A DNA stretch of 64,000 bases from a virus. This document shows positions 10,402-62,965 of the stretch, in pieces. The stretch spans positions 1 through 64,000 of IMG/VR virus record IMGVR_UViG_3300008261_004773, one strand, 5' to 3'. The position numbers and the translations under genes were made by a program. Within the stretch, counting starts at the first letter, position 1. Every line of letters begins with the position of its first letter. The notes below the pieces were generated by a model. That model searched no databases. It worked only from the letters and a program-made list of their open reading frames with translations, and was not told the origin of the DNA.

Positions 10402-11438
10402 GATTCTTCTTCTTTTTGCCAAAATGGTTTTGAATATTGTGGTCTGATGGATTTCCATATAATTTGAGAATAATCTCTACCGTCCAACATACTGAATAAT
10501 ATAGATGGGTGGGTATATCTTTTTGCTTGATCGGCGAATTCTTTCCTATCGAGACCTTTAGTGTTTAGGTCATCAAATATTCCTCTGTAATCCCTGTCTA
10601 TGTTTTCGTATCTGATTACTAAATCTTTGACGGTGTTTTTTACCCATGAATCAAATTCATCGGGCACACGATCTAAAAGGTCGGTGAGATCTTTCTTATC
10701 TTTCAAGTACTCCCAAATATCCACATTAGAAAATCCGGTGAGAATTCTGTGTAACCTAACGTACTCTTCACCTTTGATTTTCATTCTAAACCCTTTTCTG
10801 AAACGAACAACAAATCCTTCAGCGTTTTGTAAAATTTTGGACTTCAATTCGGTAAAATCCCGAATTCCATCGTATCTGTTTACAATATCCCAACCGTCCA
10901 TTTCAATATCATCATACATCAATTCCTTGCCTTCAGGATTGACAATAGATAAAAGTACCAATCTTTCATCATTGGAATAATCTACGACAATCCTGTTTTC
11001 AGGGTAAATAATTTCAAAAAGATAGGTGAACCCTGGAACACAAATCTTATCGTAGTTGTATTTCTTTGCAATCTCAAGACCTTTAATTGCTTGATCAGAG
11101 GTAAAAGAACCTTTGGTTGCCATGTGCCACTCACCGTTATAATGGAAAAAAATACCCAAGGATCCGTCCATCTTTTCGAAAACCTCAAACGGTTCTGTTG
11201 GGATTTCATTTGGGTCAATTTCTTCCATGTTGAAGAACTTGTTGAAGGATTTAGCAATTGTATTACCATCGCCATCCATAATCAAACCTCGGCACATCAG
11301 AGTAATTTCATCCCACTTACCCTCGTATTGTGTTTTACGAGAATAATTGTAGATGGCAAGAGGAAGGGTTGTGTGAAGATTTCTCTCCACCAACCCTAAT
11401 TCTACGTAGTCATTCAATATGTCTAATAATCTATTCAC
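10398..11438 (-). CDS. T4 RNA ligase 1-like RNA ligase
   Basis: 346 residues. It belongs to the nucleotidyltransferase ligases: motif I is FEKMDGSLG with the AMP-accepting Lys89 (KxDG), preceded by CRGLIMDGDGNTIAKSFNKFF, the T4 Rnl1-type substrate block; ILQNAEGFVVRFR is motif IV and FRMKIKGEEYVRLH is motif V. Such enzymes seal 5'-phosphate and 3'-hydroxyl RNA ends, classically repairing tRNA cut by host anticodon nucleases. The P-loop kinase and phosphoesterase encoded just upstream in the same operon could prepare the ends. The phage's own large tRNA set provides an obvious client. Confidence 0.93.
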   Translation of the reverse strand: MNRLLDILNDYVELGLVERNLHTTLPLAIYNYSRKTQYEGKWDEITLMCRGLIMDGDGNTIAKSFNKFFNMEEIDPNEIPTEPFEVFEKMDGSLGIFFHYNGEWHMATKGSFTSDQAIKGLEIAKKYNYDKICVPGFTYLFEIIYPENRIVVDYSNDERLVLLSIVNPEGKELMYDDIEMDGWDIVNRYDGIRDFTELKSKILQNAEGFVVRFRKGFRMKIKGEEYVRLHRILTGFSNVDIWEYLKDKKDLTDLLDRVPDEFDSWVKNTVKDLVIRYENIDRDYRGIFDDLNTKGLDRKEFADQAKRYTHPSILFSMLDGRDYSQIIWKSIRPQYSKPFWQKEEES

Positions 11439-11439
11439 A

Positions 11440-11652
11440 CTATTTTTTGATAATCATGTTGGTAGATTGAATACCCAATCTTAAGACAGGTAGTTGTTTT
11501 TCAAATTCGTCTCTTTGCATCACTTCGTAATAACCGTCTAATATTTTTACTGTTGGTGTATTTTCCATTTCTAATAGGATAGTTCCACTCGCAGAGGGTC
11601 CATCATAAAGTTTAATTGTTTTTGTTGTTGTGTTGAAAAGGAGTGTTTGCAT
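11440..11652 (-). CDS. Small hypothetical protein
   Basis: 70 residues, beta-rich with a basic C-terminus (LRLGIQSTNMIIKK). It lies between the P-loop kinase and the RNA ligase, spaced by 12 and 1 bases, so it is part of the repair operon. No recognised motif. Confidence 0.6.
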   Translation of the reverse strand: MQTLLFNTTTKTIKLYDGPSASGTILLEMENTPTVKILDGYYEVMQRDEFEKQLPVLRLGIQSTNMIIKK

Positions 11653-11664
11653 TTTTTTTGTATT

Positions 11665-12072
11665 TTAAAGTTTAATTTGAAATCTGTTTCTCATTACGTC
11701 TAGTTTTTCTTCAGGGACACCATGAACATTTTGTCCTCCATGACGATTCTCTACAATTATGGTATGGATCCTGTAACCATATTTTTTTGCAATTATTTGA
11801 TAAAATCTCATTTCCCATTCTTGAGTAAATGTATTTGAGACAACAATATTACGAAAGAAAATCCAACCAAAGATACTTGGGTGCATCCAATATGAGACTT
11901 TTCTTTTACACCAATTGTGAGCATCCTTCAATTTTGTAGAATCAAAATTATAAGATCCGTCTTTCATAAAAAATTGGTCGGCTTCAAAAATTTGCCATGA
12001 CTTACCTAAAGATCTGGCAACGGTGGATTTACCTGACCCTGGTAAACCTCTTACGAGATAAAGATTTTTCAT
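11665..12072 (-). CDS. P-loop kinase (polynucleotide-kinase-like AAA fold)
   Basis: 135 residues. The Walker A motif is GLPGSGKST at residues 9-17; ADQFFMKDG and HNWCKRKVSYWM form the lid/substrate region, and IIVENRHGGQNVHGVP is the late conserved block of the zeta-toxin/NEDD4BP2-like kinases often annotated as phage polynucleotide kinase. It would phosphorylate a nucleic-acid 5'-OH or a small substrate. Its ATG overlaps the stop of the phosphoesterase gene, and RNA ligase follows, which supports an RNA-end-healing role by context. Confidence 0.8.
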   Translation of the reverse strand: MKNLYLVRGLPGSGKSTVARSLGKSWQIFEADQFFMKDGSYNFDSTKLKDAHNWCKRKVSYWMHPSIFGWIFFRNIVVSNTFTQEWEMRFYQIIAKKYGYRIHTIIVENRHGGQNVHGVPEEKLDVMRNRFQIKL

Positions 12073-12722
12073 GTGTCTATGTTTACGAGTTGTTCTGTGT
12101 GATGATCTTTTTGCATCTCGGAAAGTTTTTCTCTATGACGTAGCATTGGTATGACTTCAGTCCTCAAATTATAAGGTCTAAACTCAGGGTGACCATCCAT
12201 ACCAACATCCATTCTCTGTCCTTTTCCCAATCGAAGATGGGTTGGAAGGTGACAGTGACCGTGTATGTGCATAACACCTTTTGCTAATCCATCCCAAGAT
12301 GATATTGGGTAGTGCATCATACGGAATTTGAATTGTCCGTATTCAAGCGTGTTGTAGTGACTAACACTTTTGAATAACCCTTGACAACCGTCACGGTTTC
12401 TTTCTATGTGGTGATCGTGGTTACCAAGTACCAAGTGTATATTTTTACAAACTAATCTATCCCAAAACTCACGTATTTTTTCATATCCACTGAATGACCA
12501 ATCACCCAAATGTATTAAGATATCATCTTGGCCAACAACTTCGTTTATGTTGTTCACTATTGTTGCATCCATTCTGTCGAGATCAGGGAAATCGCGGGTT
12601 TGGCCGACAGGTATTTCACCTTCAGCTGTTCTCCAATTTGTTATACCACGACATATATTTTTGTGGTGGTAATGCGTGTCGGAGGTAACCCATACGTTTG
12701 TATCGTAGTCTATTTTTATCAT
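12069..12722 (-). CDS. Calcineurin-like metallophosphoesterase
   Basis: 217 residues from the ATG at 12720-12722. Metal-binding motifs are all visible: WVTSDTHYHHKN (DxH), DILIHLGDWSFSG (GDxx), LVLGNHDHH (GNHD), MMHYP and MHIHGHCHLPTH (GHxH). The start is chosen because the alternative ATG at 12767 overlaps the upstream gene and adds a spurious hydrophobic stretch; a host-type -7 element TATCTTTG lies 5 bases upstream of the chosen start, implying a leaderless or near-leaderless message. In an operon with kinase and RNA ligase it could act as the phosphatase of a three-enzyme RNA-healing set. Nucleic-acid specificity is inference. Confidence 0.88.
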   Translation of the reverse strand: MIKIDYDTNVWVTSDTHYHHKNICRGITNWRTAEGEIPVGQTRDFPDLDRMDATIVNNINEVVGQDDILIHLGDWSFSGYEKIREFWDRLVCKNIHLVLGNHDHHIERNRDGCQGLFKSVSHYNTLEYGQFKFRMMHYPISSWDGLAKGVMHIHGHCHLPTHLRLGKGQRMDVGMDGHPEFRPYNLRTEVIPMLRHREKLSEMQKDHHTEQLVNIDT

Positions 12723-15606: not shown

Positions 15607-15667
15607 ATTGATGTATTTCTTATTTCAAATAATAACCTTATATTTTGGATATTAAACGTTTTTTAAT

Positions 15668-16261
15668 ATGCATGAATCAATCCAATTTATAACACGTCAC
15701 AGAAATTTGAATATAGACTATTCAAACTACTATTATTACACAAACGCATTCACTGATCAAGAACTAATTGATCTTAAAACACTTGGTGAAAACACTCCGA
15801 AAGAAAAGGGAAGTGTTACGAACGAAGGTAAGGTAACTGAGACAAGAATTAGCGAAGTTGGATGGATAATGCCCAACCAAGATTCAATGTGGTTATACAA
15901 TAAGATTACAAAAATGGTTTTGGAGGCGAATGATACGATGTGGGGATTCGATCTTTTGGGTTATCACGACAACTTACAATATACAACATATTACGGAGGT
16001 GGAGGTCACTATGATTGGCACACTGACGTAGGGCCTGGAATGGCAAACAGAAAAATATCTGTAGTTGTACAACTTTCTGATCCAAGTGAATATACTGGAG
16101 GTACACTAAATTTAAATGGTGGTAACGGAATTATTGAAGCTCCTCAGGAAAAAAATACAGTAATTATATTTCCGTCATTTGTTTTACATAGAGTTACTCC
16201 TGTAATGACAGGAATAAGAAAATCTTTAGTTACATGGATAGCAGGACCCCCACTAAGATAA
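15668..16261 (+). CDS. 2OG-Fe(II) oxygenase (PKHD-type hydroxylase)
   Basis: 197 residues. Iron and 2OG ligands are clear: HYDWHTDVGPG (HxD), the strand RKISVVVQLSDPSEYTGGTL, distal His in VLHRVTPVMTG and Arg in GIRKSLVTWIAGPP. This arrangement is common in phage hydroxylases related to PiuC/prolyl hydroxylases. It is distinct in sequence from the oxygenase at 5346. Its 3' end overlaps the next gene by 28 bases in a different frame. Confidence 0.92.
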   Translation: MHESIQFITRHRNLNIDYSNYYYYTNAFTDQELIDLKTLGENTPKEKGSVTNEGKVTETRISEVGWIMPNQDSMWLYNKITKMVLEANDTMWGFDLLGYHDNLQYTTYYGGGGHYDWHTDVGPGMANRKISVVVQLSDPSEYTGGTLNLNGGNGIIEAPQEKNTVIIFPSFVLHRVTPVMTGIRKSLVTWIAGPPLR

Positions 16262-36142: not shown

Positions 36143-36364
36143 TCAATCGGCTTCTTTTTTTCTGTCTAATCCATATTTGATATACTTGTACCAAATACGT
36201 TCATGGATATAATATTGTATTGGTTTGTAAAGTAATTCTGCAACTCCGAAAGCGGCACCAACTTTTACAGAACCAGTTGCAAACCACATGATAAGAAAAC
36301 CTATTAGTGTACTAATAATTCTGTAACTTATGGTTTTAGCAACGTGTCTTTTATTTTGTACCAT
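36143..36364 (-). CDS. DUF2061-like membrane protein
   Basis: 73 residues. KTISYRIISTLIGFLIMWFA, VGAAFGVAELLYKPIQYYIH and ERIWYKYIKYG follow the two-helix DUF2061 pattern (SYR..., YY.HER.W). Found in bacteria and in many phages; function unknown. Its ATG abuts the stop of the HAD phosphatase gene. Confidence 0.85.
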   Translation of the reverse strand: MVQNKRHVAKTISYRIISTLIGFLIMWFATGSVKVGAAFGVAELLYKPIQYYIHERIWYKYIKYGLDRKKEAD

Positions 36365-37361: not shown

Positions 37362-37544
37362 TTAATATCTTTTTGGAATTATAATCCAAAATAAAATATA
37401 AATCAAAATTATTGGTAGTGGAGAAAAAATAAGTCCTGCAAACAATATTCTGAAAAAAACAGGATCTGTGTTGAAGTATTCACCTAATCCTGAGCAAACA
37501 CCACCGAAAACTTTATCGACGGGATCTCTGAAAATTCGTTTCAT
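37362..37544 (-). CDS. PspC-domain protein
   Basis: 60 residues consisting of one PspC domain: KRIFRDPVDKVFGGVCSGLG, EYFNTDPVFFRILFAGLIF and a second hydrophobic helix (LPIILIYILFWIIIP). PspC proteins sense or counter envelope stress at the inner membrane. A phage copy could blunt the host response to membrane damage. Its stop is immediately followed by tRNA-Gly on the same transcript. Confidence 0.9.
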   Translation of the reverse strand: MKRIFRDPVDKVFGGVCSGLGEYFNTDPVFFRILFAGLIFSPLPIILIYILFWIIIPKRY

Positions 37545-38711: not shown

Positions 38712-38936
38712 ATGCAAATAAACAGGGAAACGTGGCAGAAAACACTCCAAGAGAATCTGTCTCAAATATTTTTAATGCTCGCTTTGTTCTTCAATCCATT
38801 TGGATTCGATGCCGTTCAGTATTCCCTAATATTACTGACAGGAAGTTTATGGAAAGCGAACTTCGTTTTGTATTGTATTGCGGGGGTATTTTTTGGGCTT
38901 TATATCTACTTTCGAAGATTATCTAAAGCGCCTTGA
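38712..38936 (+). CDS. Two-helix membrane protein
   Basis: 74 residues. Two hydrophobic helices (LSQIFLMLALFFNPFGFDAV and FVLYCIAGVFFGLYIYFRR) with WQKTLQENLS at the N-terminus. The frame at 38712 is chosen over the overlapping one at 38705 because only it gives coherent membrane helices. Function unknown. Converges with the gene at 38923 by 14 bases. Confidence 0.7.
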   Translation: MQINRETWQKTLQENLSQIFLMLALFFNPFGFDAVQYSLILLTGSLWKANFVLYCIAGVFFGLYIYFRRLSKAP

Positions 38937-40407
38937 GTTTTCCTTCTTTGAATAACTCAAAATTGGGACCTTTGGTTAAAAAATAGTCTTTTCCAACCTT
39001 TCTATATCCTAAGATACCTGCGTTCTTAGCTGCGGCGAAGAATGAAGAATGTTGACCTCTTAATTCTCTTGGTTCCATTGTATAGTTACCTCTTTTGTAT
39101 TTGGTTTTTCCATTGTCTGTAATTTTCTCGATGTAACCGATGTCAACTAAAAAGTCTAATTTGGTTCCTATTTTACCTGCCTCCAAGAATTTAACAAGTT
39201 TTGAAATCATCCCTTTGTTTTTTCCGAATGTATATCCATATGTTGGAGTAAAAACGGCTTGATCGCCAATTACTTTTTTCTGTAACTCACGGTTATTCTC
39301 CACTTTATTCATAACACTAGAAAGTATCCACCTCCTCATTGTATCTGTAGTGTTTTCAACAGTATCCAAAACCATAGGTGATTTCAGTTCGAAATTTTCT
39401 AAACCTAAATCTATGTAATCACTATCTTCCGAAGGATCATTACCTTGAAAACCAAGATCAATTTTGAATACATTCCTTTGGAACCTATGATTGAATTCCA
39501 CATCACCATATGAGATCATGATTTGGTAAGAATCTAATACCTTACTCTCATTTAATTTTGATAGATATATTGTTAACTCACCCACAGCGTGATTTGGCAT
39601 ACCCTGTACGTTTTCAAATGCATCGATCCCGATTCCTAACTTTGTACCGGGCATCAAATAGTTTTTTGTTTGATCTAAACGTTGGTAATCGTTGAATACT
39701 TGAAATAACAATTCGTTCTTCTGAGATTCCGTGGATTTCTTTTTGTGTTCGTAGATTGCATCTGTAATATCCGAGAATGCGTATTTGAATACCTCAACTT
39801 CCCTATCCGACATTTTGTTGTCTGCTGTGTCCCACCAAGATTCTTTACCTGAGTTATCAAAGTGTACTGCAACTTTTGTGTAGTTACCTGGCTTTGAACT
39901 TTTCTTGTCGATGATGTAAAATAAAAGTTGACCTCCTGATGTATATCTACCAAAATGTCCCGCACCTTTTGAAGTTGTGCACCACTTTGTTCCTGATCCG
40001 TATTTACATGAAGATTCTTCATTTTTCGGTATTATAACAACGAATTTATCGTCCTCATAAATCTTATCAATTTGTTTTTCTAGTTCTTTTTCTTTTTGTT
40101 TTTGTTTGATAGGGAATAAAGCTGAATCTAATTCTTCAAAACTTTCATATTGATTGATGTCTTTTTTATCAAGTTGGGATTGATACTTATCAAAACTTTT
40201 AATCAAATTAATCCCAATTTCAGCGTCACCTTCAATATGATCAGGATGAACTCCTTTCAGAACAAAATCCGTGTATTTGTGATTGAAATCTTGTAAATCA
40301 GCAATATTCAGAAACCAATCTAAAGTTTTTTCATCAAACTTGTTGGTATATTTTTTCTTTAAATCTTCTTTACGTCCTTCCCCTAATAAAATTGATATGA
40401 ACTTCAT
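38923..40407 (-). CDS. KYGxGTxWCTT-family phage protein
   Basis: 494 residues. Leader-like start MKFISILLGEGRKEDLKKKY, then ADLQDFNHKYTDFVLKG, a block I recall from N-termini of other phage proteins. At about residues 131-170: ESSCKYGSGTKWCTTSKGAG, HFGRYTSGGQLLFYIIDKK. The 4366 protein shares this core. The rest includes a beta-rich middle and a C-terminal helical, winged-helix-like part (LDFLVDIGYIEKI, FAAAKNAGILGYRKVG). Function unknown. A TATTTATA motif lies 4 bases upstream of the ATG. Confidence 0.75.
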   Translation of the reverse strand: MKFISILLGEGRKEDLKKKYTNKFDEKTLDWFLNIADLQDFNHKYTDFVLKGVHPDHIEGDAEIGINLIKSFDKYQSQLDKKDINQYESFEELDSALFPIKQKQKEKELEKQIDKIYEDDKFVVIIPKNEESSCKYGSGTKWCTTSKGAGHFGRYTSGGQLLFYIIDKKSSKPGNYTKVAVHFDNSGKESWWDTADNKMSDREVEVFKYAFSDITDAIYEHKKKSTESQKNELLFQVFNDYQRLDQTKNYLMPGTKLGIGIDAFENVQGMPNHAVGELTIYLSKLNESKVLDSYQIMISYGDVEFNHRFQRNVFKIDLGFQGNDPSEDSDYIDLGLENFELKSPMVLDTVENTTDTMRRWILSSVMNKVENNRELQKKVIGDQAVFTPTYGYTFGKNKGMISKLVKFLEAGKIGTKLDFLVDIGYIEKITDNGKTKYKRGNYTMEPRELRGQHSSFFAAAKNAGILGYRKVGKDYFLTKGPNFELFKEGKLKAL

Positions 40408-40530: not shown

Positions 40531-40881
40531 TTATTTCCAAAATAGTTGGATCAAAAGTATAATAAAACTTAATGATAAACAAATTATTGTTTTAGTTGTC
40601 ATGGGTTCTTTGAGTATAAACCAAGCCATTATGCTAAATACAATAACACCAATACTGAATCCAATAATACGGTTTGGCCAAGTCTGACCATCGTAGAGAC
40701 TAACCATTTCCCTACTTGCCAAAATTACAAAATAACCAACAGGGACACCCATCAAAGTCATTAGGAAGGGGTGTTCTTTGATCCATTTATTCCAAAGGTG
40801 ACCTTGTAATTGATAAAATGTGAAAGCCTGTGAAAACAGGTAGACTGTTAAAATAAAAATAATCGAGTAAATCTTGTTCAT
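40531..40881 (-). CDS. Multi-pass membrane protein
   Basis: 116 residues from the ATG at 40879-40881 (an upstream in-frame start adds a second hydrophobic stretch and is less likely). About four hydrophobic helices: IYSIIFILTVYLFSQAFTF, FLMTLMGVPVGYFVILA, IIGFSIGVIVFSIMAWFIL and TIICLSLSFIILLIQLFW. Small multi-pass proteins of this type are common in large phages with unknown role. Upstream of tRNA-Arg by 5 bases on the same strand. Confidence 0.7.
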   Translation of the reverse strand: MNKIYSIIFILTVYLFSQAFTFYQLQGHLWNKWIKEHPFLMTLMGVPVGYFVILASREMVSLYDGQTWPNRIIGFSIGVIVFSIMAWFILKEPMTTKTIICLSLSFIILLIQLFWK

Positions 40882-40918
40882 TGTCACAAATATAAAAAAA
40901 AGTTGTGACAAAAAAAAA

Positions 40919-42555: not shown

Positions 42556-42894
42556 TTAAAGTGATCTGAGAACGTAGGAGAGTAGTGATAACACACCAAC
42601 CAAAATTGGCATGTAAGTTTTTGCTCCCCCCATAAGTGCGAGATGTAAAACAACCGCAGCACTCATAAATGAAGTAACCAATACCATTCCGTAAAGGGAC
42701 GTTACTGGAATACAAAGTAAGATAACACCCAAAAGTTCTCCAACCCCTGTTAGTAATCTATACTTTTCTAACTTCATAAATGCGAAGTTTCCGACCATTT
42801 CTTGAGTTCCGATGATTTTTTCTACAGCACCTTTACCTAACATAACGGCTACAACTGCAGTTAAAACCCATCCGAGAATTGCTAAAATTGTCAT
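42556..42894 (-). CDS. DoxX-like membrane protein
   Basis: 112 residues with four hydrophobic helices; VMLGKGAVEKIIGTQEMVGN, KYRLLTGVGELLGVILLCIP and SAAVVLHLALMGG follow the DoxX/DoxX_2 arrangement (FxxxGxxK...G..E..g...L). DoxX-family proteins are inner-membrane proteins with poorly defined redox or transport roles. It is flanked by its own terminator and by the receptor gene's terminator, so it may be transcribed separately. Confidence 0.8.
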   Translation of the reverse strand: MTILAILGWVLTAVVAVMLGKGAVEKIIGTQEMVGNFAFMKLEKYRLLTGVGELLGVILLCIPVTSLYGMVLVTSFMSAAVVLHLALMGGAKTYMPILVGVLSLLSYVLRSL

Positions 42895-42947: not shown

Positions 42948-42975
42948 AAAACCCCCACCGTAGTGAGGGTTTTAT
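42948..42975 (-). terminator. Terminator of the TonB-dependent receptor gene
   Basis: AAAACCC-CAC / GTG-GGGTTTT stem; on the minus strand followed by TTTTTTATTT, 20 bases after the receptor stop. Confidence 0.85.
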
Positions 42976-42992: not shown

Positions 42993-45900
42993 TTACTTAC
43001 CAAAAGTATATCTGATACCTAACTGTGCAGACCATACATCAAATACTGATGAATTGAATTGATATGTGTCTTTGATCAAGTAAGTACCGCTTGCATCTCT
43101 TTGAGTTGCCAATCTATACGTTGGAATGTTACTAGCATCTCTGCTAACGAAGTTTAACAACTGAGGGTTTGTAGCTCTTTGAGATACACCCCATTTGTTG
43201 TTTACCATGTTTCCAAAGTTTAAAATGTCAGCTCTAATTTGGAAAGAATTTCTTTTTCCACCGATTTTAACAAATACATCCTGAGCTATTGAAAGATCGA
43301 ATCTATGTAGGAAAGGAAGATCAAGTGCGTTTCTTTCAGCGTACTGTCCTCTTCTTGTTGATAGATATGGATCTTGAGATATGAAAGCTTCGAATGATGC
43401 TTGTTGTTCAGCTTCAGTGTAAACTCTTGTTCCTACTGTAAGTGGTGCAAAACGAATGTCAGATCCTTTGTTTGGTACAAATACCAAATCATTGTTATTT
43501 ACTCTGTCACCGTTCAAATCACCAGCTACAATGTAAGAGAATGGATTGTTCTGTGAACCAACATAACCAAGAGTGATTGTTGTTGCTCCACCATATTTTT
43601 TACCGTAGTCAATTCTGTAACCTAACAAACCTACGATTCTATTTCTAACAACAAAGTCAGAAATTGATAGTCCTAAGTTATTGTTACCGTTTACAGATAC
43701 TGCTGACTGCCAGCTACCACTCGCGATTGAACCCGCACTCATGAAATCTTCAGCCATAGCGTTTGTGTAAGCTACGTAACCCCAAAGACCTTTTGATACA
43801 GGTTTTTCTAATTTGAATGTTGCTGAACGATTGTAAGCACCATTTCTGTTTGTTAGAACTGCTGCCATTGATACGTTATCATTTACTCTTACACCATTAT
43901 CATTTCCTGCGAAAAGGTCTCTAGTATCAACACCACCTAACTTACCAACTGGTTTATCTAAGTTAGCGTTGTAATAATGAACCGCATTGATGGTTTTGTT
44001 GTAGAGTAATTCAGCACTCAAAATTAAACCAAGCCAAGGTAGTTTCTGATCAATAGCGATGTTGTTTTTCCAAACTTGTGGAAATTTATAATTCTGATTA
44101 GTGAATGCTAAATCAAACGTAGAAGGTAAAGTTGGTGTTGATGGGATGAAGTATTGATTAGGATTTGCAGTGAAACCATATTGTGCCGCTGCCGCTCCTG
44201 ATACATCGATAAATCCTGTTAACACACCGTTGTTACCAACTTGGTTAGAAAGGAACACGTATGGTGGTCTACCTGTGAATACACCTGTACCACCACGGAT
44301 TTGTGTTTTTTTCTGACCTTTGAGGTCGTAGTTGAATCCGAAACGAGGTTCTATTAAGAACTGTGTTTTTGGAAGAACACTTGTATTGAATCCTTCACCA
44401 TTTGCGAAGATCATTGAAGACACCGCTTTATTTTCTAAAGCTGTGTTACCTAAATCAATAACATTTGCTCTGATACCAAAAGTCAACTTCAGTTCTTTGG
44501 TTGCGTTGAATTCATCTTGAACGTAAAGATCCAAACGATTAGCTTCCAAAACCTGCATTGGTTCTACCGCTCCAGGAAGTGCAGAATAACGTAATTGGAA
44601 TCTTGCCGGTGCGAATGTTGAAGGTCTACCACCGTTAGCAATTGATTGTCTTGCTGCGGTATAGAAGTCGTTCAGACTGTTGAAGATGTAAACTCCGTTA
44701 GAAGCTGGGAAGAATAAGTTATTTGATTGATAACTTTGATAGTTGAAACCACCAACCAAAGTATGTTTGTTCAAATACTTTGTCAAGTTATTTGTTACGT
44801 TGAACGTCCAATAGTTCAATTTGTTACCAGGTGTGAAAGGGTCGAAACCTACTGAAGTGTAAGTTGCGGAACCTTCTCTGATATCAATAGTTGGGAACAT
44901 TTGACTCAAATATGCTCTATCCTCAATTTGCTTATCGTAAGAAACGATTAAGTTATTGTGAAGTGTGTTAGAGATTTTAGAGTTAAGTTCCAAAACCGCA
45001 GAACGAGTATTGTCCTGAATAATGTAACCACTATTTTTGAAACTCATTGCGTTGAACTGAGTAGTTCTGTTTCCTGCTCCCGCTGACTGAGAGTTTGAAA
45101 TGTTAATCTCAGCAGAAGAATTGTGATTCACATAACGAGCGGTTAACTTGTTATTCTTGTTGATGTTCCAATCCACACGAATCAAGAATTTTCTTGAATC
45201 GTTAGTGTTAGAATACCCTTCCCAAGGACCTGTGACATAACCCAAACTATCTTTCATAAAGTTTGATAGTCTTTGCATGTCAGCAAATTTAACTCTACTG
45301 ATTTGTGTACCTGTTAAAGGAGATCCTTCTGAAATCCAAGTCGTACCTGGTTCAGTTCTTACGATACTCTCATAGTTACCAAAAATGAATAATTTGTTTT
45401 TGATAATTGGAGCACCTAATCTGAAACCTTGTACCTTTTCATCAAATTTAGCCGCAGTTACTGTCGTACCCCTTGCATTGTTACCAACATAAGTAGATGA
45501 GTTGTTTCTCTGTGTTTGATACACACTTCCTTCAACCTCATTCGTACCTGAACGAGTAACAGCATTGATACCTGCACCAACGAAACCACTTTGACGAATA
45601 TCGAAAGGTGCCACGTTAACCTGAAGTTGGTCAATTGCATCCAATGATATTGCTGAAGCACCAGTTCTACCACCCGCTTGAGCTGAAGAACCCAAACCAA
45701 AGTTGTTGTTGAACTGTGATCCGTCAATAGTGAAGTTGTTTAAACGTGAGTCTTGAGCTCCAAAAGAGTTTCCGTTACCGAATGGGTTGTACTTTGTGAT
45801 ACCATCGATAGTTCTTGCTCCCGCGATCGGAATAGAAGTAAGTTCTCTACGTCCGAATTGTTGAGCAGCTCCGGTTTTGTCTTTCGAAAAAACGTTACTC

Positions 45901-46268
45901 TTTGTTCCCACGACTGTAACCTCACTGAGTTGTTTAGAGTCGGAAAGTAGAACTACGTCCACATTACTTGTCGAGCCCAACAATGTCTGAATGTCTGTGA
46001 TCTCAGCCATTTTGTAACCAACGTAACTAACGTGGATAATGTAAGGTCCACCTACACGAACTGCTGGAATGGTATACAAACCAGATTTTGTTGAGCTTGT
46101 TCGATACTCAGAACCTGAAGGTTGGTGTACTGCGTGTACAGTGGCACCTGCTAAAGTTTCTCCTTTTTCATTTTTCACAACACCTGACAGGGTAGAAGTT
46201 GTAATCTGCCCGAAAGATGTCAATGCCACCATAAAGGATAAAAGGGACATCAAGATTGCTTTTTTCAT
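42993..46268 (-). CDS. Oar-like TonB-dependent outer-membrane receptor
   Basis: 1091 residues, full length. Signal peptide MKKAILMSLLSFMVALTSFG; residues about 24-110 are a carboxypeptidase-regulatory-like domain (LSGVVKNEKGETLAGATVHA, GGPYIIHVSYVGYK); residues about 115-250 resemble a TonB plug (LSEVTVVGTK, RRELTSIPIAGARTIDGIT, FVGAGINAVTRSGTNEVEGS); the remainder is a large barrel ending AQLGIRYTFGK. The organisation is that of Oar-like receptors of Bacteroidota. It would sit in the host outer membrane. Complete, with no frameshift, carrying a TATTTATA motif and its own terminator. A phage-encoded receptor of this size is very unusual. Confidence 0.93.
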   Translation of the reverse strand: MKKAILMSLLSFMVALTSFGQITTSTLSGVVKNEKGETLAGATVHAVHQPSGSEYRTSSTKSGLYTIPAVRVGGPYIIHVSYVGYKMAEITDIQTLLGSTSNVDVVLLSDSKQLSEVTVVGTKSNVFSKDKTGAAQQFGRRELTSIPIAGARTIDGITKYNPFGNGNSFGAQDSRLNNFTIDGSQFNNNFGLGSSAQAGGRTGASAISLDAIDQLQVNVAPFDIRQSGFVGAGINAVTRSGTNEVEGSVYQTQRNNSSTYVGNNARGTTVTAAKFDEKVQGFRLGAPIIKNKLFIFGNYESIVRTEPGTTWISEGSPLTGTQISRVKFADMQRLSNFMKDSLGYVTGPWEGYSNTNDSRKFLIRVDWNINKNNKLTARYVNHNSSAEINISNSQSAGAGNRTTQFNAMSFKNSGYIIQDNTRSAVLELNSKISNTLHNNLIVSYDKQIEDRAYLSQMFPTIDIREGSATYTSVGFDPFTPGNKLNYWTFNVTNNLTKYLNKHTLVGGFNYQSYQSNNLFFPASNGVYIFNSLNDFYTAARQSIANGGRPSTFAPARFQLRYSALPGAVEPMQVLEANRLDLYVQDEFNATKELKLTFGIRANVIDLGNTALENKAVSSMIFANGEGFNTSVLPKTQFLIEPRFGFNYDLKGQKKTQIRGGTGVFTGRPPYVFLSNQVGNNGVLTGFIDVSGAAAAQYGFTANPNQYFIPSTPTLPSTFDLAFTNQNYKFPQVWKNNIAIDQKLPWLGLILSAELLYNKTINAVHYYNANLDKPVGKLGGVDTRDLFAGNDNGVRVNDNVSMAAVLTNRNGAYNRSATFKLEKPVSKGLWGYVAYTNAMAEDFMSAGSIASGSWQSAVSVNGNNNLGLSISDFVVRNRIVGLLGYRIDYGKKYGGATTITLGYVGSQNNPFSYIVAGDLNGDRVNNNDLVFVPNKGSDIRFAPLTVGTRVYTEAEQQASFEAFISQDPYLSTRRGQYAERNALDLPFLHRFDLSIAQDVFVKIGGKRNSFQIRADILNFGNMVNNKWGVSQRATNPQLLNFVSRDASNIPTYRLATQRDASGTYLIKDTYQFNSSVFDVWSAQLGIRYTFGK

Positions 46269-46289
46269 TTTGCTTTCTGTTTATTGGTT

Positions 46290-46297
46290 TATAAATA
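46290..46297 (-). promoter_or_regulatory. TATTTATA motif before the receptor gene
   Basis: TATTTATA on the minus strand, 21 bases upstream of the receptor ATG and immediately after the T-tract of a terminator. Confidence 0.5.
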
Positions 46298-46298
46298 A

Positions 46299-46332
46299 AA
46301 AATCCCGCGACTGTTACGTCAACGGGATTTGT
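46299..46332 (-). terminator. Terminator or attenuator upstream of the receptor gene
   Basis: On the minus strand AAATCCCG / CGGGATTT with a 15-base loop, followed by TTTTTATTTAT. It lies between a sigma70-like promoter (46406-46434) and the receptor, so it either insulates the receptor from the upstream unit or attenuates read-through into it. Confidence 0.8.
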
Positions 46333-46405
46333 TTAATTTCTATGTGTTTTTCGGTAATAATTAAGTTCCACAAAATTGTTTTTAAGGATTATCCTTGTTT
46401 CAATA

Positions 46406-46434
46406 AGTATAGGGCACAGTTTCCAAGTTGTCAA
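46406..46434 (-). promoter_or_regulatory. Sigma70-like promoter
   Basis: Minus strand TTGACA (46434-46429), 17-bp spacer, TATACT (46411-46406). Nearly consensus for a sigma70 promoter, reading toward the receptor gene. No gene lies between it and the hairpin at 46299. Confidence 0.5.
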
Positions 46435-46486
46435 ACTTCATGTTAAGAAAATGTAAACACGGAGATATCCAACTGATTTTCAGTAA

Positions 46487-46957: not shown

Positions 46958-47352
46958 TGGTGGAGATGACGGGAGTCGAACCCGTGTCTTGTTCACGAAC
47001 ACTATAAATGACTACACGTTTAGTACAACGTTGTTTCTCAACGTTACGAAATATTAGGTTAGATATATGTGGGAAACCAACCTACAAACAACCTGGTCTC
47101 AGAATTATTTTAAACGAGCTCTGACCTGTCACCCGTATATTGGACTTCTGTTCCTAGGTTAACGTCCTAATCGACCCGATATGTTGTTCTCTACGATTAC
47201 GCAGCAACAACGCTTTCTTCACGGATAAGACCGATAGCAGAAAGTTTTGCGAAAGTTTCGCCGTTTGTGTTTCAAATCAGTTTTTAAGGAGTTAATTCAG
47301 CTCCTACGTGCCATCTATAATATCACATGCCAATCAATGCCGTGACATCCCC
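46958..47352 (-). ncRNA. ssrA: tmRNA (transfer-messenger RNA)
   Basis: 395 nt. 5' end GGGGATG pairs with CATCTCC, discriminator A and an encoded CCA (46958-46960). The T arm is ACGGG-TTCGACT-CCCGT. The tag frame (47262 down to the TAA at 47199-47197) begins with a GGC resume codon and reads GETFAKLSAIGLIREESVVAA, 21 residues. GET is the usual Bacteroidota start, but the tag is longer than the common 8-15 residues and ends VVAA instead of ALAA. tmRNA rescues stalled ribosomes and marks the product for proteolysis; phage ClpP and ClpC could be the receivers. Confidence 0.93.
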
Positions 47353-47435: not shown

Positions 47436-48476
47436 TTGGCATCGAGTGAATTATTTCAAATATTAAGAAAATACGTAAGGGGACAAGCGGATAGGTATGA
47501 TATTGAAAGGACCGAACCATCGATACATAGGGTTGTTGAAAATCCGGTAAAGGGGTTAACAAAAATTCAATTCGAGTTCAAAAACGACGAAGAACTACTC
47601 GAAGCTTTAGGTGTTTCTCAGGACGACGTTTTCTTTGTGAATCATGTTTACTCACCTCATTCAAATTGGGGATTCACAGATGAATCTCGTGTATTCGAAG
47701 ACTTCGAACAAGGATATATTGTTTTTTATGAATTGAACGAAGAAAATTTGGAAACAATGAATTTTATTTTGAAAGTTTTGGATCCAAATTATGATTACTC
47801 GGATCTACCGGAAGAAAACACAAACAAAAGGGCAGCGGAGATTCTTTTGAAAGTTTATCCAAAACAGACTAATAGGATTTTAGATGATTATCATTCTGAG
47901 TTTGAACATGCGGCGACTCAAAAGGCGATGGAAATTATCGACGAAGAACTTACTGAAGAACTCAAAAAAAATGAATTCACAGTTGCAAGAAAGTGGGACA
48001 CAGTGAGTATCAATGTAGGTGAATTGATAATGTTATACTTGAAAACGGGATTAGTGTGGTTGAGTTTCAAGGATCTATTTAAAGAGTTATACAAAGGAGA
48101 AGATCAAGGTTGGAATTGGTCCGAACAAAGTTATGAGTGGGGATATAACAGTGACTTCGACAAAGAATCCTTCAATCGAGATGTTGCTTGGCAACTTGAT
48201 AAGATTAAAGACAACATTGAAGAAGATGAAAATCTTCCAAAATTTATAGAGTTTTATAACAGAATCACAAAAAAATTCAAACCAATGGTCATGTATGATT
48301 TACCCAAATTGAAGGGTGTCACTTTCATGATTAAAGATTTCGATAAAGATGAAATGAAAGTTGAGGTAATCCTACGTAAAGACCTAAAATCAATATCCAG
48401 AAAAGTCTCAGAAGAAAATTTTTATAAATTATTATACCAACCTGAATTATTTGCTGGTCCGTTTGGTGATGTGTAA
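47436..48476 (+). CDS. Hypothetical phage protein
   Basis: 346 residues starting at TTG (47436); no ATG is available before residue 60, and the tatatttata element at 47411 precedes it. Acidic, helical and Trp/Tyr-rich (FVNHVYSPHSNWGFTDES, GWNWSEQSYEWGYNSDFDKE), with a basic C-terminal part. No family recognised. The frame is intact from TTG to stop and flanked by promoters on both sides. Confidence 0.6.
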   Translation: MASSELFQILRKYVRGQADRYDIERTEPSIHRVVENPVKGLTKIQFEFKNDEELLEALGVSQDDVFFVNHVYSPHSNWGFTDESRVFEDFEQGYIVFYELNEENLETMNFILKVLDPNYDYSDLPEENTNKRAAEILLKVYPKQTNRILDDYHSEFEHAATQKAMEIIDEELTEELKKNEFTVARKWDTVSINVGELIMLYLKTGLVWLSFKDLFKELYKGEDQGWNWSEQSYEWGYNSDFDKESFNRDVAWQLDKIKDNIEEDENLPKFIEFYNRITKKFKPMVMYDLPKLKGVTFMIKDFDKDEMKVEVILRKDLKSISRKVSEENFYKLLYQPELFAGPFGDV

Positions 48477-49380: not shown

Positions 49381-51390
49381 TTATTTACCCTTCTTCAGTT
49401 TTATTTCTTCACCATCTACAATCACTTTGTAAGATGTCCCTTCTTTCACATTTCCCTTCAAAACTTCTTCTGACACAAGATCTTCCACTTTGTCCTGAAT
49501 TGCTCTCTTGAGTGGTCTTGCTCCGTAAAGTTCATCATACCCAACATTAGAAATATAATCTACGAGTGTTTGGTCATAAGAGATCTTATAGTTCATTTCA
49601 TTCAAACGTGAGATCAACTTCTTGATTTCAATTTCACTGATTTTCTTGATGTCATCTTCTTTGAGTGCATTGAATGTAATGATGTCATCAACACGGTTCA
49701 AGAATTCGGGAGAGAAGAAATTTTTCATTTCTTTCATCAAGATTTCTTTTTTCTGTTCATCAGAACCATACTTGGACGAACCGAATCCGATACCCGTACC
49801 GAAGTCTTGTAGTTTTTTTACACCCAAGTTAGAAGTCATGATAATCAACGTATTTCTGAAGTTGATTTTTCTACCCAAACTATCGGTAACATGACCGTCA
49901 TCCAATATTTGTAGTAAGACAGAGAATATATCTTTGTGAGCTTTCTCTACCTCATCGAATAGGATTACAGAATAAGGTTTGTTTTTAACTTGCTCTGTAA
50001 GTTGACCACCTTCATCGTAACCAACATAGCCTGGAGGAGCACCTACTAATTTGGAGATAGTATGTTTTTCTTGATATTCACTCATGTCCACTCTGATCAA
50101 AGAATCCTCAGTACCGAAAATTTCTTTTGCGAGTTGTTTTGCTAAGTGAGTTTTACCTACACCTGTTGATCCTAAGAAAATGAATGAACCGATTGGACGA
50201 TTTGGATCTTTGATACCCAAACGATTTCTACGAATAGATTTTACAATCTTGAGAACCGCAGCATCTTGACCGATAACTCTATCCTTGAGGACTGAATCCA
50301 AATTAACAAGAGCCTTGGTGTCATCGATAGACATCTTGGATACCGGAATTTTGGTCATTGTAGAAACAACTTCATAAACCAAGTCCAAAGAGATTTCCTT
50401 CTTTGATTGAGACATTTCTTCTTCGAACTTTTTCTTTGCGTCTTCGAGTTTTACAATGATCTTCCTTTCTTTATCACGTAATTCTGCGGCTTGCTCGTAG
50501 TTCTGTTTCTTAACAACATCCATTTTGAGTTGTTTGATCTCAGAAGCCTTTTGTTTCAATTCTTCGATAGCTGCGGGAATTTTAGTTTCGAGTTGTGTAC
50601 GAGCACCAACCTCGTCAAGGATATCGAAAGCTTTATCGGGAAACTCACGATCAGTAATATAACGATCGGCCAATTTCACACAAGCCTCCAAAACAGAATC
50701 AGAATAAGTTACCTTATGGTAAGCTTCATACTTGTCTTTGGAATTTTTGAGAATAAGGAGTGTTTCTTCCTTGGTTGCACCTTCAACCATAATTTTTTGG
50801 AAACGTCTCTCGAGTGCTCCATCTTTTTCAAAGTTGGTACGGTATTCATCAAGTGTAGTTGCACCAATACATTGAATCTCTCCACGAGATAATGCTGGTT
50901 TGAAGATGTTTGATGCATCCAATGAACCTGACGCATTTCCTGCTCCAACCATTGTGTGAATTTCATCGATGAACACAACCACATTTGGGTTAGCCTGTAA
51001 TTCTTCGATGATCACTTTCAACCTTTCTTCGAACTGACCACGGTATTTTGTACCGGCAACAATTGAGTTGATATCGAGATTCACAATCCTTTTATCCATC
51101 AAATTTTTTGGACACTCACCGTTATAAATCTTCATAGCCAAACCCTCAACGATTGCGGTCTTACCACAACCAGGTTCTCCGATGATAATTGGATTGTTCT
51201 TTTTTCTTCTCGAAAGAATTTGAGCAATCCTCATGATTTCTTTATCTCGGCCGATAACGGGATCCAATTTACCTTGTTCGGCTAATTTGATAAGATCCCT
51301 ACTGAAATTATCCAACACTGGTGTTGGGCTGTCAGAAGATTGTTTCTTCTTACTCATCATTTTGTCATCGTCATCAAGTAGATCATTCAT
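49381..51390 (-). CDS. ClpC-type AAA+ unfoldase lacking the N-domain
   Basis: 669 residues with two AAA+ modules: Walker A1 GEPGCGKTA, Walker B1 VVFIDEIHTMVGAG; a UVR motif (KKQNYEQAAELRDKERK) as in ClpC; Walker A2 GSTGVGKTH, GAPPGYVGYDEGG and Walker B2 VILFDEVEKAH. The ClpP-docking loop is kept as GTGIGFG. The usual Clp N-terminal domain is missing: the protein starts near the first AAA+ module after a short Asp/Lys-rich leader. Substrate choice should therefore differ from the host enzyme. With phage ClpP this makes a complete protease. Confidence 0.93.
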   Translation of the reverse strand: MNDLLDDDDKMMSKKKQSSDSPTPVLDNFSRDLIKLAEQGKLDPVIGRDKEIMRIAQILSRRKKNNPIIIGEPGCGKTAIVEGLAMKIYNGECPKNLMDKRIVNLDINSIVAGTKYRGQFEERLKVIIEELQANPNVVVFIDEIHTMVGAGNASGSLDASNIFKPALSRGEIQCIGATTLDEYRTNFEKDGALERRFQKIMVEGATKEETLLILKNSKDKYEAYHKVTYSDSVLEACVKLADRYITDREFPDKAFDILDEVGARTQLETKIPAAIEELKQKASEIKQLKMDVVKKQNYEQAAELRDKERKIIVKLEDAKKKFEEEMSQSKKEISLDLVYEVVSTMTKIPVSKMSIDDTKALVNLDSVLKDRVIGQDAAVLKIVKSIRRNRLGIKDPNRPIGSFIFLGSTGVGKTHLAKQLAKEIFGTEDSLIRVDMSEYQEKHTISKLVGAPPGYVGYDEGGQLTEQVKNKPYSVILFDEVEKAHKDIFSVLLQILDDGHVTDSLGRKINFRNTLIIMTSNLGVKKLQDFGTGIGFGSSKYGSDEQKKEILMKEMKNFFSPEFLNRVDDIITFNALKEDDIKKISEIEIKKLISRLNEMNYKISYDQTLVDYISNVGYDELYGARPLKRAIQDKVEDLVSEEVLKGNVKEGTSYKVIVDGEEIKLKKGK

Positions 51391-59328: not shown

Positions 59329-61086
59329 GTGACCAGAGAACAATTAATTATCGAAGTTACGAAGTGTATGAAAAACACTCCGTACGCGATGAGAACTTAT
59401 TTGCAGACTTTTGACAATACCGTCAAAAGATATGTACCATTGGATCTATTCCCTGACCAAGTAACCTTAGTTGAGGATTATGATAATTACAACGAAAACA
59501 TTGCACTGAAATATAGACAGGCGGGTGTATCAACAGTAACCGCTGCATGGTCTTCGAAAAGGTTAGTTTTTGCAAAGAAGAACAATCCAGAAAAAATACT
59601 GATCATTGCAAACAAATTGGATACCGCTGTAGAATTTGCTAATAAGGTTAGAGGATTTACAGAACAATGGCCTGCTTGGGTTGGGGTTGGCTTTTCACAA
59701 GAAAAAAATTCACAAAGACATTTCAAACTCACAAATAATTGTGAAGTTAAGGCGGTTGCAACTTCCAAAGATGCCTTACGTGGTTATACACCTACAATCC
59801 TAATATTCGATGAAGCAGCATATATTGAGGCAGATGACGACTTTTGGGCAGCCTGTATGGCTTCCCTGTCTACGGGAGGTAAAGTGATTGTAATTTCTAC
59901 CCCAAATGGTTACGATCCAATTTACTATGAAATCTATGAACAGGCATTGAGAAACATGAATACGTTCAAAGTTTCTGAAATGTTTTGGTACAAGGATCCG
60001 AGATACAACAAAGATCTTTACATGGTAAAATGTGATGATCTGACTGATTATCTTTTAAACCGCGAAAATTACAAGAACACTGAAGTTATAGACCTAACGG
60101 TAGAAAATGCCTACGAAAGAGATTATGATGTTGTAAAAAATTACATCTCACAAGGATTCAAACCATGTTCATCTTGGTTCGAAGGTATGGTAAAAAAACT
60201 GAAGTATGACAAAAGAAAAGTTGCTCAGGAACTTGAGTGTAACTTTTTGGGGTCAGGTGATAATGTATTCGAATCAACTCTCCTTACTAAAATAAAAGAT
60301 AATGATATAAAAGATCCTGATGGAAAAATGATGGCAGGTAACTTGTGGATTTGGAAAGATCCTGTTATGAGTCATAGATACATCATGGGTGTGGACGTTT
60401 CGAGGGGTGATTCGGAGGATTTTTCTTGTATCCAAATTATCGATTTTGATGAGAGAGAACAAGTTTTTGAATATGTGGCTAAAACACCGCCAGACGTTTT
60501 AGCGGAAGTTGCCTACAAGTGGGGTAAGATGTATAATGCAATGATTGTCACAGATCTGACTGGAGGTATGGGAGTCGCAACGGCGAGAAAATTGCAAGAG
60601 TTAGGTTATAAGAATTTATATGTTGAAGGACTGACAGAAAGAAACAAATATAAATGGGATCCGAAAAGAGACGAAAAAATACCAGGGATTAACTTCAATG
60701 CTAAAAGGGTTCAAATTATTGCATCTTTGGAAGAATCTTTGAGACACGGTTTCAAAGTTAGATCTCAAAGACTTTTGAATGAAATGGGTAAATTCATTTA
60801 TGTGAATGGTAGACCAGATCACCAAAAAGGTCACCATGACGATACAATTATGTCAATTGCTATGGCAATTTACGTTGGAGATACTGCATTCCAAAACTTA
60901 CAGAAGGTTGTTCAACAAACTAAAGTTATGATTGATTCGTGGCACACAGAACGTAGTGAGAACAAAATGAGATCTGATTTTTTCAATCCTACAATACCCG
61001 TAGCAGGAAATCACAATCCAAGATTTATCAACGAAGCATCCAAAGAGGACTACAGGAAATATGGATGGTTATTTGGGGGTCGATAA
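59329..61086 (+). CDS. terL: Terminase large subunit
   Basis: 585 residues, GTG start. ATPase domain: IALKYRQAGVSTVTAAWSSK is a deviant Walker A with the RQxGxST form, PTILIFDEAAYIEADDDF is Walker B with the catalytic Glu, and KVIVISTPNGYDP is motif III. The nuclease domain has YIMGVDVSRGDSEDFSC, AMIVTDLTGGMGVATARKL and QKGHHDDTIMSIAMAIY, the three acidic clusters of the RNase H-like fold. It drives DNA packaging and cuts concatemers. Order terminase-portal matches the T4 type. Confidence 0.96.
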   Translation: MTREQLIIEVTKCMKNTPYAMRTYLQTFDNTVKRYVPLDLFPDQVTLVEDYDNYNENIALKYRQAGVSTVTAAWSSKRLVFAKKNNPEKILIIANKLDTAVEFANKVRGFTEQWPAWVGVGFSQEKNSQRHFKLTNNCEVKAVATSKDALRGYTPTILIFDEAAYIEADDDFWAACMASLSTGGKVIVISTPNGYDPIYYEIYEQALRNMNTFKVSEMFWYKDPRYNKDLYMVKCDDLTDYLLNRENYKNTEVIDLTVENAYERDYDVVKNYISQGFKPCSSWFEGMVKKLKYDKRKVAQELECNFLGSGDNVFESTLLTKIKDNDIKDPDGKMMAGNLWIWKDPVMSHRYIMGVDVSRGDSEDFSCIQIIDFDEREQVFEYVAKTPPDVLAEVAYKWGKMYNAMIVTDLTGGMGVATARKLQELGYKNLYVEGLTERNKYKWDPKRDEKIPGINFNAKRVQIIASLEESLRHGFKVRSQRLLNEMGKFIYVNGRPDHQKGHHDDTIMSIAMAIYVGDTAFQNLQKVVQQTKVMIDSWHTERSENKMRSDFFNPTIPVAGNHNPRFINEASKEDYRKYGWLFGGR

Positions 61087-61123: not shown

Positions 61124-62965
61124 ATGGATAATAAGAATCTAACGGTATGGCAACGACTTTCTGCGGCATTTGGACCTAACGCGCTCCTTAATCAGGATTA
61201 TCCTACTTTTCATTTCGACAAAGAGGTTCTTTTAAAAACTCAAGACAAAGCCCAATACGAAAAAGAAAAACTTCAAGCCCAACAAACCTTTTACTTATCT
61301 AATCAATGGGCAAAAGTTGAAAACAATTTGTATTCTCAAGCAGTATATTATGAACCAACAAGATTGGCTTCAGTATACGACTATGAATCAATGGAGTATA
61401 CTCCTGAAATATCTGCGGCGTTAGATATCTACGCTGAGGAATCAACAACCACTAACGAAGACGGGTTCATTCTACAAATTTATTCTGAATCAAAAAGAAT
61501 CAAGGGTGTATTAGCAGATCTTTTCAATAACACATTGGATATCAATACAAACTTACCAATGTGGACAAGAAACACGTGTAAATATGGTGACAATTTTGTA
61601 TATCTGAAATTGGATCCTGAAAAAGGAGTTGTTGGTGTACAACAATTACCAAATATAGAAATCGAAAGAGTTGAAGCAGGAATGCACGAAAAAAGAGCAC
61701 AATCTTTGGAAGACCCTACAGCTCAAAGAGCCCTTCACTTCAAGTGGAAAAACAAAAACATGGAGTTCCAATCTTGGGAGATTGCACATTTCAGACTACT
61801 GGGTGACGACAGAAAACTTCCATATGGTACCTCGATGTTAGAAAAAGCAAGACGTATTTGGAAACAATTATTGTTATCTGAAGACGCAATGTTAATTTAT
61901 CGTACTTCAAGAGCACCTGAAAGAAGAATATTCAAAGTGTTCGTTGGAAATATGAATGACGAGGATGTTGAAGCATACGTTCAACGTGTAGCAAATAAGT
62001 TCAAAAGAGATCAGGTGTTGGATCAAAAGACGGGTAACGTGGACATGAGGTTCAACCAAATGGCTGTTGATCAGGACTACTTTGTTCCCGTGAGAGACCC
62101 TGCAGCTCCTTCTCCAATTGATACATTACCAGGTGCACAAAACTTAGCTGAGATTGCCGATATTGAATATATTCAGAAGAAATTACTAACTGCATTACGT
62201 GTTCCAAAAGCATTCTTGGGATTTGAAGAAGTGGTAGGAGACGGAAAAAATTTGTCATTACAAGATATTCGTTTTGCCCGTACTATTAATAGAATCCAAA
62301 AAAGTATGTTGCAAGAATTGAACAAAATTGCAATTATACATTTGTTTCTCAACGGATTTGAAGAAGAAATTGCAAACTTCACTTTAGGTCTTACAAACCC
62401 ATCTACTCAAGCTGACCTTTTAAAGATTGATGTATGGAAAGAGAAAGTTTTACTTTACAAAGATGCAGTTGCGGATCCAGGTAATGGTATTCAACCTGTA
62501 TCATCTACATGGGCTAAAAAACATATTCTCGGAATGTCTGATGAGGAAATCAAATTGGATTTACAACAACAAAGAATAGAAAAAGCGGTAGGTGAAGAAT
62601 TGAAGAATACTCCAGCCGTAATCCAAAAAACAGGTATATTTGACAATATTGACAAACTATATGGTTCTACAACAGGATCTACAGCAACTGCAGGAGCAAC
62701 ACCTAGTGGAGAAGTTTCTGAACCTGCTTTAGGGGCCTTACCTGCTGAAACAGGTGGAGCTTTACCGGGTGAAGAGGTGGCCGCTCCTGAGGCAGCACCT
62801 GAGGGAGAAGCTGCGGGTGGAACAGTACCAGAATCACGTTTCGACAACATGAATATTTTGCTAGACTCAGATATGATTAAGGGTAGAACAATCTTAGATT
62901 TGAGCCATGGTCAACAATATTTAGGAGAAATTGAAAAAGAGTTAGACAACTTACTAAACTCCTAA
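61124..62965 (+). CDS. Portal protein (T4 gp20 type)
   Basis: 613 residues. VWQRLSAAFGPNALLNQDYP at the start, SMEYTPEISAALDIYAEEST, YGDNFVYLKLDPEKGVVGVQ, ERRIFKVFVGNMNDEDVEAY, DYFVPVRDP and ALRVPKAFLGFEEVVGDG follow the order of conserved blocks in T4-like portal proteins. The C-terminal 90 residues include an Ala/Gly/Pro/Glu-rich linker (AAPEGEAAGGTVPE). It forms the dodecameric DNA gate at the head vertex. Confidence 0.94.
   Translation: MDNKNLTVWQRLSAAFGPNALLNQDYPTFHFDKEVLLKTQDKAQYEKEKLQAQQTFYLSNQWAKVENNLYSQAVYYEPTRLASVYDYESMEYTPEISAALDIYAEESTTTNEDGFILQIYSESKRIKGVLADLFNNTLDINTNLPMWTRNTCKYGDNFVYLKLDPEKGVVGVQQLPNIEIERVEAGMHEKRAQSLEDPTAQRALHFKWKNKNMEFQSWEIAHFRLLGDDRKLPYGTSMLEKARRIWKQLLLSEDAMLIYRTSRAPERRIFKVFVGNMNDEDVEAYVQRVANKFKRDQVLDQKTGNVDMRFNQMAVDQDYFVPVRDPAAPSPIDTLPGAQNLAEIADIEYIQKKLLTALRVPKAFLGFEEVVGDGKNLSLQDIRFARTINRIQKSMLQELNKIAIIHLFLNGFEEEIANFTLGLTNPSTQADLLKIDVWKEKVLLYKDAVADPGNGIQPVSSTWAKKHILGMSDEEIKLDLQQQRIEKAVGEELKNTPAVIQKTGIFDNIDKLYGSTTGSTATAGATPSGEVSEPALGALPAETGGALPGEEVAAPEAAPEGEAAGGTVPESRFDNMNILLDSDMIKGRTILDLSHGQQYLGEIEKELDNLLNS

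Follow-up and report, generated by a model that had tools for sequence, protein, structure and literature searches.

A conserved TonB-dependent receptor of bacterial descent in large environmental Bacteroidota phages and its putative role in uptake by the infected cell

To our knowledge, the auxiliary genes described from phages act mostly within the cell. At the cell surface, Cor and Llp are small outer-membrane lipoproteins that phages use for superinfection exclusion, and coliphage PA-2 carries a full-length porin that excludes other phages. The receptor described here would likewise act at the outer membrane, but these proteins are small lipoproteins or passive porins, whereas its architecture is that of an active transporter. 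Whole TonB-dependent receptors are also on record from very large phages. In particular, a putative SusC TonB receptor has been annotated in the marine megaphage Mar_Mega_1 (2021) and in LR745206, and the authors proposed uptake during infection (PMC9723777). One phage SusC (A0A8D9FQQ5, from an uncultured marine phage) is held in BFVD, where Foldseek matches its fold to ours. In the light of these entries, the statement in a sequence-only reading of this locus that known phages make small proteins that block receptors rather than receptors of full length was too strong. The marine phage SusC nevertheless differs from our receptor: it has 805 aa, is 11% identical in structural alignment and stands as a lone annotation without phylogeny, selection or locus analysis. 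A study of a conserved phage family of TonB receptors was not found in the open-licence literature.

Among bacterial systems, Oar of Myxococcus xanthus is needed for the secretion of the protease PopC, and transporters with the Oar architecture are common in Bacteroidetes (PMC6434023). Our receptor is likened to Oar by description (PMC6434023), with which it shares a CarboxypepD_reg domain, a plug and a barrel; Oar has PopC as its secretion partner, whereas our receptor is without a known partner of this kind. Bacteroidota Oar-like receptors (PF13620 plus PF25183) have the same domain order, and the closest of these bacterial genes (the host orthologues L095-L098) are 54-57% identical to the phage receptor in full-length alignment. 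The phage proteins differ from them in forming a clade on a long stem, in lying in several unrelated gene neighbourhoods and in being swapped between phages. As in SusCD-type pairs, a second phage receptor (~825 aa, in L306) has a lipoprotein directly behind it, but the receptor studied here has no such partner. What is new is a widespread and conserved phage receptor clade, the repeated capture of one orthologue, a locus at which receptors are swapped and a receptor-lipoprotein cassette. Our results suggest that large environmental Bacteroidota phages use a captured receptor to nourish the cell that they infect or to govern what gets into it.

The stretch of DNA analysed (hereafter the window) is 64,000 nucleotides long and belongs to a 96.8-kb IMG/VR contig. 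On its minus strand, an intact, frameshift-free open reading frame with an ATG start (42993..46268) encodes an Oar-type TonB-dependent receptor of 1091 aa. All parts of the receptor are given here on that strand. The protein opens with a signal-peptide-like N-terminus (residues 1-20, MKKAILMSLLSFMVALTSFG; 46209..46268), recognized in the sequence and by a pattern kept in the alignment, and continues with a CarboxypepD_reg domain (residues 26-107; 45948..46193; Pfam, 2.3e-16) that scores 60.3 bits against a cut-off of 32.3 for PF13620 and gives the receptor its Oar architecture. The segment LSEVTVV (residues 114-120; 45909..45929) is TonB-box-like and may function as such; its L-x-E-V pattern is kept in the alignment, and a regular expression finds it in 33 of the 38 phage copies, a count that measures sequence resemblance only. 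There follow a plug region (residues ~135-240; 45549..45866), which is the most constrained part of the protein, and an outer-membrane barrel with long surface loops (residues 241-1091; 42996..45548), where the Pfam family OMP_b-brl_4 (PF25183) covers residues 237-1023 (1.2e-47).

An AF2 model built with 83 relatives in the alignment (pLDDT 86.7, pTM 0.82) contains the plug region (135-240) and a barrel of ~22 strands, and its best Foldseek matches are all TonB-dependent transporters (FusA, YddB, PfeA, Cir and FepA; probability 1.00). That is, PF25183, the model and Foldseek agree on a 22-strand outer-membrane barrel, and the N-terminal plug inside it is recovered by fold (the model and the full-length structural matches) but not by the Pfam HMM, as the Plug model PF07715 gives no score on the window receptor. 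Neither a PDB sequence search nor PHROGs gave a match to the receptor. The full-length Oar-like receptor proposed from the sequence is therefore borne out by the reading frame, Pfam, AF2 and Foldseek, its carboxypeptidase-like domain and barrel being confirmed by Pfam and its plug by the AF2 fold and Foldseek.

Phage genes were said to flank the receptor on both sides, and they do. Two phage hallmarks, the terminase large subunit (59329..61086, plus strand) and the portal protein (61124..62965, plus strand), lie 13-17 kb from it, and the window holds one tmRNA and 23 tRNAs. The slot occupied by the receptor is bordered on one side by a conserved 346-aa protein (47436..48476, plus strand) and on the opposite side by a conserved 126-aa membrane protein (40531..40911, minus strand) and a conserved 494-aa protein (38923..40407, minus strand); a ClpA-like ATPase (49381..51390, minus strand) serves as a further synteny anchor. 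The immediate neighbours are a DoxX-like protein and, upstream, a 60-aa ORF, a tRNA and the tmRNA gene that adjoins the slot (46958..47352, minus strand). A SusD-like lipoprotein gene was not found among them, and for this reason we do not file the receptor as SusC. Small host-like membrane proteins occur nearby (DoxX-like, PspC and DUF2061, at 42556-42894, 37362-37544 and 36143-36364 of the window). The tmRNA also lies beside the slot in L284, L285, L295 and L319, and in L295 it is followed by an SmpB gene (15615-16049).

A bacterial contig mislabelled as viral was considered and rejected given the terminase, portal, DNA polymerase, primase and other phage genes. The same gene recurs in the same surroundings in two other assemblies, with 11 nucleotide differences in L001 and 17 in L012, of which 10 and 15, respectively, are synonymous codon changes in the receptor. 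Because the gene and its borders recur in these assemblies and in related phages, a chimeric assembly is excluded for practical purposes.

Searches of IMG/VR returned 24 viral loci by pattern scan and 93 viral relatives by alignment-based scan, the best 80 of which were retrieved. Receptor-bearing viral contigs reach 287-321 kb, and at least six different gene neighbourhoods surround the gene. These include DNA polymerase and GroEL (L010), primase and exonuclease (L007), helicase and PhoH (L005), and GroEL (L008). Phage GroEL (L010:13371-14990, L008:1301-2926) is often directly downstream of the receptor (L145, L166, L169, L174 and L186). The isolate phage collection gave poor matches only, to short unannotated faecal contigs, and receptor identity in plasmids is at most 34%.

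The receptor is intact in 62 of the 63 copies that are not cut by a contig end; the sole exception (L022:1369-4679) carries a frameshift, which is either decay or a sequencing error. The gene is conserved in many related phages. As far as the data allow, we find neither chimeric borders nor absence or decay in relatives, the two outcomes named beforehand as counting against the gene. A functionless chance capture or an assembly artefact would agree with the frameshifted copy in L022 and with the empty slot in four related phages (below), but we regard it as extremely improbable: the borders are the same in independent assemblies, nearly all uncut copies are intact, and the gene is under purifying selection, its synonymous sites being often close to saturated.

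The origin of the gene was examined with bacterial orthologues drawn from ~860 searched genomes, in line with the phylogeny against host Oar-like receptors proposed at the outset. The 38 distinct phage receptors fall into a single clade (SH-aLRT 100) nested deep inside Bacteroidota diversity. Its sister group is four bacteria of one family, and the stem that leads to it measures 0.43-0.46 changes per site. Within this sister family, a close orthologue occurs in 169 of 223 genomes, usually as a single gene among 10-128 first-look candidates. In six bacterial genomes inspected, the orthologue lacked conserved neighbours from which a substrate could be guessed. Some phages hold other orthologues in the slot: those of L291/L292 and L296 are 73% and 78% identical, respectively, to genes of a second bacterial family but share only 44-50% identity with the main phage clade. 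The AU test rejects one common origin for all phage copies (p 5.6e-18). The orthologue has been captured from bacteria by phages at least twice, and the L292 and L296 genes may themselves be separate captures (p 0.034). The Ferruginibacter family appears not to be the donor of these alternative orthologues, the best match there being only 45%. The 14.6-kb viral contig L023 carries, next to a UvsX-like recombinase, a distant Oar-like receptor (9031-12348; 30% identical) that is placed elsewhere in the bacterial tree and is possibly a further capture. Since the same orthologue was taken from among many paralogues on at least two occasions, the captured receptor must matter specifically. Its tree nesting and the empty sites in related phages mark it as an auxiliary gene, that is, one that is host-derived and unneeded for the virion; the empty sites also imply that it is dispensable.

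The gene moves between phages as well. Identity to the window phage in the portal and in the receptor is uncorrelated (rho 0.11, p 0.67, n = 17). For example, L172 has a portal 96% identical and a receptor 73% identical, and L009 a portal 42% and a receptor 88% identical. We therefore conclude that the receptor gene passes between phages, with the caveat that strongly unequal rates of evolution could account for part of the mismatch.

The slot was compared among phages with the gene order of the window (ClpA, M20 peptidase, and the 346-aa, 126-aa and 494-aa proteins). A search of related phage genomes for the gene in this neighbourhood had been suggested as a check, and the receptor is indeed found between the same borders: the slot holds a window-type receptor in L283, L284, L295 and L319. 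It has no receptor in L303, L301, L330 and L285, the last of which keeps the tmRNA in place. In L288, L296, L304 and L306 it holds a different TonB receptor (PF14905, ~825 aa) with a ~400-aa lipoprotein (L306:15510-19189, L288:8597-12276 and L296:15790-19466; the family also occurs in L375-L454), and the PF14905 receptor of L304 is cut or broken. This second receptor has 100 viral relatives, and the lipoprotein is directly downstream in all 66 loci whose contigs reach that far. The phage lipoprotein has no match among Pfam or NCBIfam families. Several contigs carry both receptor types. Scanning DNA with a SusC plug pattern yielded one short, uninformative contig. The swap locus provides a natural comparison set, in which similar portals come with one receptor, with another orthologue, with a receptor-lipoprotein pair or with nothing.

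Between phage copies, dN/dS is 0.07-0.20 overall and ~0.03 in the plug, values read with synonymous sites that are in many cases close to saturated. When sites are assigned by the predicted topology, 45% of those in long loops and 50% of those in strands are at least 95% identical among the 38 phage copies; the corresponding shares of sites conserved in the bacterial orthologues are 24% and 31%. Since the two groups differ in depth, only the loop-to-strand ratio is to be read. Of the residues invariant in hosts, ~80% persist in the phage proteins, in plug, strands and loops alike, and fixed differences between phage and host are limited to nine positions, four in the plug and five in loops. 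This pattern would be expected of a working transporter with a preserved ligand, whereas a phage-evading decoy should differ in its loops.

The main alternative is superinfection exclusion or receptor substitution, in which the phage copy would dilute the host receptor, take its place or compete for BAM and TonB, with the result that competing phages neither adsorb to the infected cell nor enter it. There is a rationale for it, because phages commonly adsorb to TonB receptors, and the porin with which PA-2 excludes other phages is a precedent. Bacteroides TonB receptors have been proposed as phage receptors on docking evidence (PMC10569736), and the capture of one orthologue out of many paralogues, together with receptor swapping at one locus, fits an arms race. 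Yet the surface loops are not fast-evolving and show no specific difference from those of the host, the plug and the TonB-box-like segment would be dispensable for such a role although the plug is the most constrained region, and the receptor-lipoprotein pair of sister phages is left unexplained. The blocking role put forward in the sequence-only reading therefore stays a candidate that the conserved plug and loops do not favour, and we consider it unlikely. A related idea is that a receptor displayed on the infected cell or in vesicles sensitizes resistant neighbours or soaks up competitors. This fits the strict conservation of the loops and the exchange between phages but would not require a plug or a TonB box, and we find it very improbable.

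We prefer, with moderate confidence, to see the receptor as a host-derived, putatively working transporter through which Ton-powered uptake would continue in the infected cell. The evidence leans this way through the whole transporter architecture, purifying selection, the conservation of the loops and of the TonB-box-like segment, repeated capture and the receptor-lipoprotein pair; nutrient uptake had been one of the roles first listed, and the retained plug and the presence of receptor and lipoprotein at the same site speak for it. On this model, the phage receptor would be made after infection, secreted, and inserted by the BAM machinery of the host. It would then couple to the host's own TonB-ExbBD; a TonB C-terminal domain (TonB_C) was found in none of the 15 phage records searched. 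By importing its ligand as host gene expression falls, it could sustain the long infection of a large phage. If so, phages with this conserved and repeatedly captured transporter also manage the uptake of the cell or, under exclusion, which phages enter; the choice between the two becomes testable through the expression of one gene.

Our first guess at a substrate for the proposed uptake would be nucleic-acid or protein breakdown products from lysed neighbours, because some phages have the genes of a secreted endonuclease and of a small P-loop kinase directly behind the receptor. The enzymes seen at this position in several lineages are a DNA/RNA endonuclease (PF01223, 5e-40) and an AAA_28 kinase. 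The endonuclease lies directly or closely behind the receptor at L008:13333-13986, L013:13329-13982, L022:5301-5903 and L193:13863-14480, and nuclease matches occur directly behind the lipoprotein of the second receptor in L402 and L407. The PF01223 family is present in 12 of 21 records, receptor-less phages included, and is absent from the window's own record. The nuclease as a constant receptor partner is weakened by this, and the nucleic-acid idea is a lead only. A broader version holds that the slot is a swappable uptake island, in which a phage leader drives any Ton-dependent cassette (separately captured Oar orthologues or the receptor-lipoprotein pair, with nuclease and nucleotide-kinase-like genes in some lineages) that scavenges nucleic-acid debris for phage DNA replication. 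We judge this version distinctly unlikely.

The same downstream genes can be read in terms of export or signalling, with the receptor either exporting a phage or host protein, by analogy with the part of Myxococcus xanthus Oar in PopC secretion, or taking part in cell signalling. The domain architecture (PF13620, plug and barrel) is that of Oar, for which TonB-dependent secretion has been shown (PMC6434023), and secreted proteins (the endonuclease and a CpeT-like protein) lie directly behind the receptor in some phages. However, the neighbouring secreted proteins vary between lineages and are absent in the window, and the architecture says little for export because it is the usual one in Bacteroidetes transporters. 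Export or signalling is improbable.

Signals around the gene indicate a transcription unit of its own; that it has its own terminator had been noted from the sequence. Downstream, a terminator hairpin (42948..42973, minus strand; z -6.0) is followed by a T-tract. Upstream, the promoter-like phage motif TATTTATA (46290..46297, minus strand) lies 21 nt before the ATG and overlaps the T-tract of a terminator- or attenuator-like hairpin, ATCCCG...CGGGAT (46302..46328, minus strand; z -4.2), that is kept in phages sharing the window locus. A sigma-70-like promoter match, TTGACA-17-TATACT (46406..46434, minus strand), lies 166 nt before the start codon; it is a consensus match only, with 11 of 12 positions matching, and is one of five such sites in the record.

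The receptor had been described as carrying the same motif as virion-type genes. This holds for the window, where TATTTATA is enriched: it occurs within 45 nt upstream of 15 of 126 ORFs in the sense orientation, the portal included, and of 3 of 126 in reverse. It does not extend to the orthologues in general, since the motif precedes the receptor in 12 of 51 distinct upstream regions and is absent in most other lineages, which use it elsewhere. For this reason, TATTTATA does not establish late expression of the receptor family. A T4-type late promoter was rejected, as the sense motif is TATTTATA and not TATAAATA, and it is not general before orthologues. The 96.8-kb record has 24 sites, which lie 11-36 nt before many start codons with clusters at 11-12 and 20-23 nt, and the motif is enriched in other large-phage lineages too. 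It has the appearance of a phage promoter whose transcripts have a very short leader or none.

The promoter-like TTGAC..TATACT, a TATACTTAT block, the hairpin and a TTTATA stretch make up a ~200-nt leader that is recognisably common to 14 phages and partly also to two with alternative receptors. Being common to window-type and alternative-receptor loci, the leader appears to be a property of the phage locus and not of the receptor gene. In the window (46269-46480) and in L002, L284, L157 and L291, it contains a possible short Tyr-rich ORF behind GGAGAG (e.g. MKNFYYLYTN or MKKNYYNLTTN), and a conserved leader with a short ORF and a terminator-like hairpin is possibly an attenuator.
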